DNA of 64,000 nt from the NCBI GenBank assembly GCA_964019415.1, contig OZ025885.1, forward strand, positions 6,353,444 through 6,417,443, given 5' to 3'. The position numbers were made by a program, and so were the translations under genes. Under the pieces are notes generated by a model. It saw nothing but the letters and a program-made list of their open reading frames with translations, was not told where the DNA came from and ran no database searches. Below, piece by piece: positions 33,896 through 40,412 of the stretch (position 1 is its first letter; each line of letters opens with the position of its first letter). This DNA comes from Ianthella basta (Eukaryota; Porifera; Demospongiae; Verongiida; Ianthellidae).

Positions 33896-34292
33896 CTGGA
33901 AGGAGAAAGGGTTCATGCACTTGTGTGTGCACTACAGTGTTTACACACAAAACTTGAATTAACATCTACTACAGGAATACATGCACACTACAACCACTGA
34001 TCAATTATTTGGTCAAGTGACGAGAACGGACCATACATTTGCCCGGGGCGTTTAGCGCACTTGTGTTGTTAGTAGTCTCGTCCCCAGCCCACTTCCGGCC
34101 GCCATTTTGCAATGGCCCGAAAAGGTGGTCTGGCGACTATGGTCGACTTTCTTGGGCCCGGAAGTCCATTCCCAGCAGGAATGTGTGCTGGCCAATCAGA
34201 TTACACAACAGCTCATTACTGGCATGTTATGCATAACATTCACCTCTGGCGTTCATACCTACCTAGCAGCATAGATCTATGCTAGCAGCGAG

Positions 34293-36238
34293 ATGGCAGC
34301 TTCGAGCAGCGAGACGGCAGCTTCGATGGGAGAAGTGCGAATCCCAAGATTGGCCGCAAGGCTACCTTCGGCCACAGTGAACAATGCTATTCTGGAAGCA
34401 TTCGTAATGCTCGGCTACGAGAAGCCCACAGTAGACCAGGAAGAGGCGATTTTAGACTTCATAAAGGGACGTGACGTCTTCGTTTCTCTCCCAACAGGGG
34501 CGGGCAAGTCTCTCTGCTTCGCCAGTCTTCCTGTCATCTTTGACAACCTTCGGCGGCATCTGCAGATTATTGGAGGGACAGACTGTGGCTGCATCGTCTT
34601 GGTTGTGAGTCCGCTGATCGCGCTAATGCAGGATCAGGTAGATAAGTTCCACAAGCGGGGACTAAAGTGCACATTCCTGGGACAAGATTCGTGTGACAAG
34701 GCAGCTGTGATTGCTGGAGAGTACCAATTAGTGTACATATCACCAGAGTACCTTCTTGAAGACCTGGCAGTAAGAGACATGTTTCGATCCCAAGTGTATG
34801 TGGACAACTTTGTAGCCCTTGTTGTTGATGAGGCTCACTGCATTGACATTTGGTGAGTGTGCAGCTATTGCCCTGTTGTGTGTGTGTGTGTGTGTGTGTG
34901 TGTGTGTGTGTGTGTGTGTGTGTGTGTGTGTGTGTGTGTGTGTGTGTGTGTGTGTGTGTGTGTGTGTGTGTGTGGTGTGAATGTGTTGGTTTGTGTGCAG
35001 GTGTGTGCAGTATGTTAAGGTGCTGTGTGGTGTTTGTATGTGTCATGAAGTAAGTGTACGTCCTATTTGAAATGGTCATACACATCCTTTTCCACATCCT
35101 GTGTCCTGATTGCAGGGGTCCATCATTCAGGAGAGAATATCAAAACATTGGTGAGGCTCGGTCCATTATTCCCTTTACTGTCAATGTAATGGCACTAACT
35201 GCAACAGCTTCTCGCCGAACCCGCAAGGTTATCCAGAAGAGCTTATGCATGTTAGATTGCAGTGTAGTGTTGAAAGTGCCCAACAAGCTCAACATTAGAT
35301 ATACTGTTCGGGTGAAGCCTGATGATGTCCGCATTGCTCTGCAGCCACTGGTTCATGGTCTTTGTCAGCATGGTAAAAACGCCGAAAAATGCATTATCTT
35401 TTGTCGGACATATGATGATGCAGTGCATGTCCACGAATGCCTTGCTGATGAGCTTGGGAAGAGTGATGCTCTGTTTGTGAATGGGGATGTCACTTGTGAC
35501 ATGTTCACGAGTGCATCGCATGAAGATGACAAAGGCCGGATACTTGCAGAGTTCAGCAACCCCTTGAGTTCACTTAGGGTGATTGTTGCAACAGTTGCCT
35601 TTGGCATGGGTATAGATGTACCTGATGTTCATTGCATTATCCACTGGGGTCCTCCCAGTACGATAGATGCATACTTGCAGGAGAGCGGAAGATGTGGACG
35701 TGATGGGCAAGATTCCACAGCGATGCTATACTTCTCCCGGTCAGATTTCAGCGGCTATCATCCTCCCTCAGATGACAGCAAAGCATACTGCTTGAATGAG
35801 AGCAAGTGCAGGCGGGAAATGCTGCTGGCTGAGTATGATGGTGGCAACTTCATCAAGCCCAATCCTTGCCACAAATGCTGTGATGTGTGTTCCCGCACAT
35901 GCAAATGTGATGACTGCCTTGATGTACAAGCATTACTGTTGACAGAAGCGGATCCGGAACTTGTTCCACCAGTCATTCCAGCAGTAACCCAACATCAGCT
36001 TGGGTCAAGTGCACAACGAGCTTTAAAAGCTTCATTGGAAGCTTTTCGACTCTCTCTAGTTGATGATAAAAGTTGCCCTCCTTTATTTGGTATTGAAGTA
36101 GTTACTGGTATAACTGATGTTATTATTGATGATATCGTAAGGAACAAATGGAAATACAATTCTGTGAACAGTTTTCTATCTTGTGGATTATCACATAGCC
36201 AAGCTGCTGAGATGTTCAAGATTGTATCTAATCACTGA
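34293..36238 (+). CDS. RecQ-like SF2 DNA helicase of element A
   Basis: Two exons, 34293-34852 and 35116-36238, join in phase 2 to give HCIDIW-GPSFRREY and 560 residues. An ATP-driven 3'-5' DNA unwinding role is known for the family. Visible motifs: Walker A SLPTGAGKS (65-73), SPLIALMQDQV (motif Ia), DEAH (179-182), LTATA (214-218), VATVAFGMGIDVPD (344-357) and QESGRCGRDGQ (375-385). A Cys cluster (about 411-454: ESKCRRE, CHKCCDVC, CKCDDC) corresponds to the RecQ zinc-binding region; no HRDC domain follows. The start ATG is the first in frame and lies 220 bp inside the TIR end. The intron holds a (TG)n tract. Its constant pairing with a DUF6589 gene in A and B suggests a role in transposition, perhaps strand separation or gap repair (inference). 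Confidence 0.9.
34875..34974. repeat. (TG)n microsatellite in the helicase intron
   Basis: About 49 TG units within the single intron (34853-35115) of the element A helicase. It probably arose after the element inserted; comparison with other copies would show this. Confidence 0.95.
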
Positions 36239-36263
36239 CTATTTTAAGGTTAATTTGTTGGAA

Positions 36264-39200: not shown

Positions 39201-39861
39201 ACAGCTACCTAAATGCATTAATGCATAGAGGCTATTTATTACACCACAGTCAGATGTTTACGGCAGAAAGGGCTGCTAACTTTTTTACTAACCTGCACCA
39301 TGGGACTGTCTTGGAAAAGCTTTTTTCTGTGACACCTCTTCTTGCTACCTGGTGGTGTGAGGAACACACCTCTGTCCTGCAGTCTTCTCTTTTTGCGAGG
39401 ACTAGGAGTCTTGCTGTCTATATGAAGAAACCACAGCAAGCACAAAGGTGTGAGTCGTAGTTAGCTATTTTATAGCTATTTGATTAAAGGCCCTAGTCAG
39501 CTGCGTAGCTGGCTAGTTGTTCACCTTGGTTACTGTCGCGCTGCTCTTCCTCGCGATCCGTTTGTGTTTGGGTACCTTGATCGCAGCTTATGCTCCTGAT
39601 TGAGACAGAAACGTCATGCGGCTGTCCAGCACAACGTAGGATGTCTTGAACAGTAGATCGGAGTGTCCCCTCCGCCTTGCTGCCTTTCTCCAGCTTGGAA
39701 AAGCACGTTCGACACACGTACTGGTTGCTACTTTCAGTTTCTGCAAGTCGAAGCCCGACCGACTTGGCAAAGGCGAGAACCTGAGGGCTACTTTCTATTC
39801 GCCTGCGAAAAGAAGGATTTGCCACGCTGCAGGAACACACCGCACAGCGTTGCACCGCCAT
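36264..39861 (-). CDS. DUF6589-type protein of element A, candidate transposase
   Basis: Seven exons: 39861-39525, 39417-39293, 39208-38750, 38668-38446, 38378-37927, 37822-37559, 37466-36264. All junctions are GT-AG with matching phases; total 3,063 nt, 1,020 residues, no internal stop. N-terminus: zinc-binding ZAD-like motif (C6-x2-C9 and C50-x2-C53), then a basic patch PRKKRR (119-124). The C-terminal half matches DUF6589 proteins, abundant and multi-copy in fungi, cnidarians and sponges: VGDNVD (422-427), GGDQLT (577-582), DWHAKVNF (611-618) and DAIREGDG (819-826). These blocks recur in element B. They are candidates for a DD(E/D) active site (inference). The gene ends 25 bp from the helicase stop. 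It is the likely transposase because it is the only large second gene between the TIRs. Confidence 0.85.
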
Positions 39862-40412
39862 CTTGCCCGTACAAATTCCACACCTCGGTGCTCCCACCAG
39901 TGTTACGTAATCGAGACTGGCTTCCAGGCCCAAGAAAGTCGACCATAGTCGCCAGACCACCTTTTCGGGCCATTGCAAAATGGCGGCCGGAAGTGGGCTG
40001 GGGACGAGACTATGTTGTTAGGGCTGGCATTGTATTAGACAATAAACGCCTACAGGCGAGGTCCGTTCTTTCACCTGATCCCCTTGTGCTGCGCACATAA
40101 CGAAAGGTTTGAATTAATCAGAATATCGGAGCAAATGTGCCAGACCACCTTTTGGGGGGCTGGGAAATACCGTATTTGTCCGTATAGAGGCCGGGGGTCA
40201 GGAGGCCAGTTCATTAATGGAGGCCGGGTCCGAATAGTGGCCGGGTCTGGAATAGTGGCCGGGTCCTGAATAGTGGCCGGCTTCGCCGCAATCGACACGG
40301 AATGCCTCTCGATCGACGCTTTTGTGCTCCTTAGCAACTGCAAGTCGCTTGTCACACTTCACAGTTGCCAAGGATCATCAGAGTTGCAAGAGCGATGTGT
40401 CTACGAGAAAGT

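Follow-up and report, generated by a model that had tools for sequence, protein, structure and literature searches.

The window analysed here, a stretch of 64,000 nucleotides from the demosponge Ianthella basta (assembly GCA_964019415.1, contig OZ025885.1, positions 6,353,444 to 6,417,443 of the forward strand), contains a 5,940 bp element, called element A, in which a helicase gene and a gene encoding a DUF6589 protein are enclosed between inverted ends. The locus raises the question of what kind of element this is and whether the helicase belongs to its machinery or is only carried along. Our answer, to which we assign a probability of about 0.84, is that element A is an AcademH-type transposon, complete and mobile until recently, with the DUF6589 protein as its DDE-type (aspartate, aspartate, glutamate) transposase and a RecQ-family helicase as a dedicated partner.

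Boundaries, genes and copies of element A

The features of element A, in window positions, are as follows.

34073..40012, no strand: element A, complete DNA transposon of 5,940 bp (terminal inverted repeats, duplication, insert-free sites, three further full copies)
34064..34072, plus strand: left target-site duplication, TGTTGTTAG
34073..34164, plus strand: left terminal inverted repeat, starting with TAGTCTCGTCCCCAGCCCAC
39921..40012, minus strand: right terminal inverted repeat
40013..40021, plus strand: right target-site duplication, TGTTGTTAG
34293..34852, plus strand: RecQ-family helicase, exon 1 (GT-AG, open frame, Pfam)
35116..36238, plus strand: RecQ-family helicase, exon 2 including the stop (GT-AG, open frame, Pfam)
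39525..39861, minus strand: DUF6589 protein, exon 1, with paired cysteines near the N-terminus that look like a zinc finger (all Pfam matches under the cut-off)
39293..39417, minus strand: DUF6589 protein, exon 2
38750..39208, minus strand: DUF6589 protein, exon 3
38446..38668, minus strand: DUF6589 protein, exon 4
37927..38378, minus strand: DUF6589 protein, exon 5, with conserved GDNxD (D424, candidate first catalytic Asp)
37559..37822, minus strand: DUF6589 protein, exon 6, with conserved GDQLT (D579, candidate second catalytic Asp)
36264 (approximate, to the stop)..37466, minus strand: DUF6589 protein, exon 7, with EGDG (E823) and DLHxEHxNR (E894, candidate catalytic Glu)

The two arms of the terminal inverted repeat (TIR) are 92 nt long each and differ by one mismatch; a preliminary description of the window had given near-perfect repeats of 93 bp, of which the near-perfection stands and the length does not. 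The sequence TGTTGTTAG on both flanks is an exact match of nine bases that does not extend further, in agreement with the perfect 9-bp duplication described earlier. When the flanks of A were fused with one copy of the duplication, 36 of the 40 matches listed (the best 40 of 82) crossed the junction, while two of the other four are A's own flanks and two end before the junction. Six of the 36 were aligned, and all six run continuously without the element, their lengths varying in an adjoining GTTAGGG-like stretch. Empty sites thus exist elsewhere in the form of similar repeats lacking the insert, and the target of A was a short repeat unrelated in kind to the element. This repeat, whose parts flank A at window 34011-34072 and 40022-40083, is dispersed in the genome and contains a GTTAGGG-like stretch. 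The exact 20-base terminus of A occurs 213 + 227 = 440 times genome-wide, and a control with the reversed pattern gave 0 occurrences. Chance is ruled out by the TIR together with the duplication and by the 440 exact TIR ends against none reversed.

Three more full-length copies of A (L014, L015 and L016) are present in the 209 Mb genome and differ from it by 2, 14 and 14 substitutions, respectively; a gap of 200 N in L015 leaves 67 residues of undetermined letters within the DUF6589 frame. COX1 of this genome, on contig C96, contains nine TGA codons in frame, and its sequence resembles that of a demosponge. The DNA of helicase exon 2 matches five places, four of them over the full length at 100% (rounded) and one in part at 91%. 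As the copies are near-identical, A was probably mobile recently. The 201-bp left end of A has at least 44 matches (best 40 of 520 candidates), and the number of exact 20-base termini indicates that gene-less copies far outnumber the four gene-bearing ones. The presence of A's genes in other copies with the same TIRs was nevertheless borne out, as four copies, A included, carry both genes, gene-less copies being common.

Target duplications were checked at 14 insertions of which both ends were read; L017 and L018, represented by one end each, were left out. The sample comprises six insertions in the window (A, the element B described below, 25061-25528, 47053-48243, 47120-47850 and 48410-48491) and eight outside it (L014, L015, L016, L007, L008, L055, L057/L056, and L019, which is the same place as L006). 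Exact 9-bp duplications were found at 12 of these 14 insertions.

The helicase gene of A has two exons and a predicted product of 560 amino acids, with the frame open across the GT-AG join. Two intron acceptors, 35115 and 35130, keep the frame open, and the one that retains the RecQ-like WGPSFRREY was chosen. The intron contains a long TG repeat (window 34876-34973). Pfam analysis of the protein revealed DEAD (9.1e-24) and Helicase_C (7.2e-17), and comparison with known helicases gave 1.2e-43 for E. coli RecQ and 3.5e-43 for human RECQ1, the top non-RecQ entry among the best 60 of 151 being at 7.5e-13. Judged by these similarities, the helicase is a member of the RecQ family, nearer to RecQ than to other superfamily 2 helicases, which agrees with the 560-residue RecQ-like helicase of the preliminary description. 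The RecQ zinc-binding model of Pfam reached 16.8 bits, under the cut-off of 25 bits.

The DUF6589 gene lies convergent to the helicase gene, on the minus strand. Its seven exons join into an open frame with a predicted product of 1,020 amino acids, in which DUF6589 (1.6e-46) was the sole family found by Pfam. The GT-AG sites of this gene were picked by eye, and the joins are backed by the three other full copies, in which all splice dinucleotides are kept and internal stops are absent from both genes. They are also backed by divergent loci, whose tblastn matches are interrupted at identical positions of the protein, such as residues 533 and about 619-621. With the joined frame open and the joins kept in the copies, the earlier statement that both genes are free of stops and frame breaks and that the seven exon phases fit was upheld, and so, given the TIRs, the duplication and the two open genes, was the description of A as an intact transposon.

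Linkage and shared descent of the helicase and DUF6589 genes

The search with PF20231 gave 58 exon matches in the genome, which were merged to 40 DUF6589 loci, copies of the same family being counted separately; for the helicase, the best 78 of 641 candidates were used. At least 24 of the 40 DUF6589 loci have a helicase match within 6 kb, which supports the proposal that the pairing is a property of the group. Of the 24, 19 show the arrangement of A and B, in which the helicase lies downstream of DUF6589 on the opposite strand; three have DUF6589 followed by the helicase on one strand, and two have the helicase ahead of DUF6589 on one strand. The three loci with DUF6589 first are 99.9% alike, and the two with the helicase first are 99.1% alike over the compared stretch. 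The convergent order, earlier taken as a shared trait of the group, is thus not fixed: five of the 24 paired loci, belonging to two families, carry both genes on the same strand, and in two orders. Both same-strand layouts belong to real elements with A-like ends: L055 begins with TAGTCTCGTACCCAGCCCAC and has the duplication ACACTGTCA, and the L057/L056 element begins with TAGTCTCGTTCCCAGACCC and has the duplication CCCAGATGC. An open frame of 1,882 amino acids with a helicase match at C7:1655472-1655960 (L071) was rejected as an artefact, as the frame runs into N past the match.

A second, divergent pair is present in the window itself.

40921..47039, no strand: element B, divergent relative of A, with TIR TAGTCTGGCTCGC, exact 9-bp duplication CGTCAGACT and a convergent gene pair, both genes damaged
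41711..44198, plus strand: DUF6589 gene of element B, extent of the match, with frame changes within
44597..45667, minus strand: helicase gene of element B as far as it was matched, interrupted by the insertion 45665-46473

The insertion that disrupts the helicase gene of B measures 0.8 kb and has 16-bp inverted ends. With a TIR and a duplication of its own, B is a real element, and the claim that it holds the same gene pair as A in convergent arrangement proved right.

The descent of the two genes was compared over DUF6589 residues 798-960 and helicase residues 260-446. The sample of 22 loci was reduced to 13 lineages by dropping five copies that were near-identical to others or of the same family, and four loci without 60% of the compared part of the helicase. 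The distance matrices of the two genes over the 13 lineages correlate with r = 0.55, a value reached in 1 of 10,000 permutations. In both trees L028 pairs with L056, and L020 pairs with L022, each time with good support; L042 stands beside the L020/L022 pair in both (91/93 and 100/99), and A (L033) and L055 are sisters in both (89/93 and 83/75). The grouping of L035 with L041 is supported by the DUF6589 tree alone. Sister elements differ in layout, as L028 is convergent whereas L056 is same-strand, and A is convergent whereas L055 has both genes on one strand in the opposite order to L056. If the sister pairs L028/L056 and A/L055 are correct, there were at least two changes of layout that did not separate the partners, and the two genes seem to have travelled together for a long time despite their flipped order.

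Codon comparison of five pairs from different lineages shows both genes to be under constraint: synonymous differences have reached saturation (0.78-0.88 of sites), while the nonsynonymous distance is 0.26-0.62. The helicase of the decayed copy L018 differs from that of A by 0.43 at synonymous and 0.34 at nonsynonymous sites, as for a dead copy; its DUF6589 gene had no comparable codons. Among near-identical copies, the substitution counts are too small to judge constraint.

The candidate transposase, classification and the role of the helicase

We infer that the DUF6589 protein is the DDE transposase of A, because it has conserved acidic residues and no further gene was recognised in A, where ten additional reading frames of 84-190 amino acids, picked by hand, gave no Pfam match at E 0.1. 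The DUF6589 alignment consists of 21 loci and A after nine near-identical copies were dropped, and since related families are included, its rows are not independent. D424 is conserved in 13/13, D579 in 16/16 and E894 in 21/22 rows, and D611, D798 and E823 are further conserved acidic residues. On the basis of the motif context, D424/D579/E894 is proposed as the catalytic triad. When searched with a DUF6589 alignment, neither IMG/VR (93 pattern hits) nor the GTDB genomes (176 pattern hits) yielded a relative that could be confirmed.

The helicase of AcademH is of superfamily 2 and the nuclease of AcademX is XPG; going by the title of a paper by Kojima in 2020, AcademH reportedly occurs in animals and fungi. 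According to one source, AcademH elements make duplications of 9 or 10 bp and AcademX elements of 3 or 4 bp, a difference tied to the encoded helicase versus nuclease (PMC10045372). Another describes AcademH as low-copy elements in three fungal phyla (PMC10799480). A carries a helicase (DEAD, Helicase_C, RecQ family), and its group makes 9-bp duplications; as both features are stated for AcademH, element A is likely an AcademH-type transposon. PMC3627910, citing Kapitonov, names a RecQ helicase in Academ as a non-transposase gene. A separate RecQ gene, which the preliminary description had considered as the mark of a sister group, thus does not by itself set A apart. In the present genome, the helicase and DUF6589 of A and its kin are separate genes that stand to each other in three different layouts. 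Work on a subtelomeric RecQ in a fungus (PMC4522978) and PMC12210899 had no bearing on the assignment.

Two other assignments were rejected. For AcademX, Pfam found no nuclease domain in the two proteins of A, the duplications are of 9 bp, and the genome has 3 XPG_I matches, among which no XPG-bearing Academ element was found as a bridge. For KDZ (Kyakuja-Dileera-Zisupton), the KDZ domain was not found in A by Pfam, and there is one KDZ match genome-wide.

Several observations weigh against the AcademH-type reading with a DUF6589 transposase. Pfam lists DUF6589 as a family of unknown function, and a profile of its C-terminal part gave six matches against the PDB with E of 0.16-0.76, none of them sensible. 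The triad is matched in conservation by other acidic columns, among them D819 and D825 (22/22), which is why the triad is put forward as a proposal. The fit to AcademH is one to its published descriptions. The flanks of L015 and of 48410-48491 agree at only 7/9 bases. The two trees are not identical, and several of their deep forks lack support. Finally, 16 of the 40 DUF6589 loci have no helicase match within 6 kb, among the helicase matches listed.

A more far-reaching formulation is tentative and rather unlikely: DUF6589 would form the catalytic core of a family of transposases partnered by a RecQ helicase, the two genes being inherited together over long times but re-inverted within the element, and new copies would go preferentially into the ends of relatives.

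It is improbable that A represents a separate, undescribed superfamily in which the RecQ helicase and the 9-bp duplications arose convergently with AcademH. This explanation gains from the failure of DUF6589 to hit any Pfam transposase family (proteins scanned) or, by profile, a sensible solved structure, and from the absence of the word from the 5.39 million papers searched, which omit most subscription journals. With only 3 XPG_I matches, there is also no multicopy family here of the nuclease of the other Academ lineage. It is opposed by the combination of a helicase with duplications of 9-10 bp, which is that of AcademH according to PMC10045372, and by the naming of RecQ for Academ in PMC3627910. 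If DUF6589 were unrelated to the Academ transposase, the elements would constitute a new superfamily.

We regard it as distinctly improbable that the helicase takes no part in transposition and is a passenger acquired in one or several capture events. The variable gene order speaks for it, as do the 16 loci without a listed helicase match; however, direct tblastn on 30 fetched loci detected a helicase at three of them (L023, L047 and L048), which raises the paired loci to 27/40, and the remaining 13 are all partial DUF6589 matches of 26-81 bits, 5 of the 13 being covered by direct tblastn. Moreover, the agreement of the distances, the matching sister pairs in both trees and the constraint on both genes argue for long co-selection.

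The chances of a Mutator-like element (MULE) that acquired a helicase are very remote: the long TIRs and the 9-bp duplications would fit, and the genome has 13 MULE matches, but the MULE domain is in neither protein of A, and profiles of two MULE groups, built from 7 of the 8 MULE loci fetched, did not match that of DUF6589, with probabilities of 0.1-0.2 against reference values of 59.5 between MULE groups and 100 between two DUF6589 clades. Kolobok elements duplicate TTAA, unlike the 9-bp duplications of varied sequence observed here. Almost no weight can thus be given to a Kolobok of the RecQ-carrying kind, although the passages of PMC9587614 record, as in A, a RecQ helicase in the DDD/E DNA transposons KolobokH and Kolobok-1_CCri, in the latter on the complementary strand; the same passages know KolobokH from fungi only and leave DUF6589 unmentioned.

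Under the AcademH-type reading, and by analogy with what is generally known of DDE transposons and RecQ helicases, the DUF6589 protein would bind the TAGTCTCG ends and cut there, and would join the ends to target DNA with a 9-bp stagger, giving the 9-bp duplications. Gene-less copies sharing these ends would be mobilised in trans. The RecQ helicase, which probably takes part in transposition, would act as a co-selected helper that unwinds either the ends or the target DNA while strands are transferred, or else the gapped product that results.

With four nearly identical copies carrying both genes, this young family is a place to test the role of a transposon-encoded RecQ helicase, and the Pfam family DUF6589 is now tied to a transposon. 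The co-descent of two genes with flipped order goes beyond the AcademH label. In addition, the comparison of helicase-bearing elements (9 bp) with nuclease-bearing Academ elements (3-4 bp, PMC10045372) makes the determinant of stagger length testable.

Gene-less elements, related families and nested insertions

Four gene-less elements are present in the window.

25061..25528, no strand: gene-less element of 468 bp with A-type ends and the 9-bp duplication GAAGGAAAA
47053..48243, no strand: gene-less element of 1,191 bp, including a nested copy, with the same type of TIR and the exact 9-bp duplication AGACTACCC
47120..47850, no strand: gene-less element of 731 bp inside the TIR of 47053-48243, with the exact 9-bp duplication GGTATCTTT and a helicase exon fragment
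48410..48491, no strand: gene-less element of 82 bp with A-type ends, flanks agreeing at 7/9

The element at 25061-25528 sits far from A. Many gene-less copies, including that at L019 (the L006 place), contain a fragment of helicase exon 1 that is about 71-78% identical to that of A. At this level of identity, such copies may stem from a sister family of which no coding member was encountered.

Copies that are 99.1-100% alike in the compared stretches were also found for L020/L021, L026/L037, L055/L029, L024/L025 and L038/L039/L040. Beyond the family of A, five other families with the DUF6589 and helicase genes thus look young too.

Elements of the group were also seen to insert into the ends of their own relatives. 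Eleven termini lie 0-14 bases past the AGGTGGTCTGG of another TIR, with 0 in the control; these termini are not necessarily independent events, and they compare with 440 exact termini of a slightly longer pattern. The nested element at 47120 (window 47102-47137) is one of the 11 termini that follow AGGTGGTCTGG.

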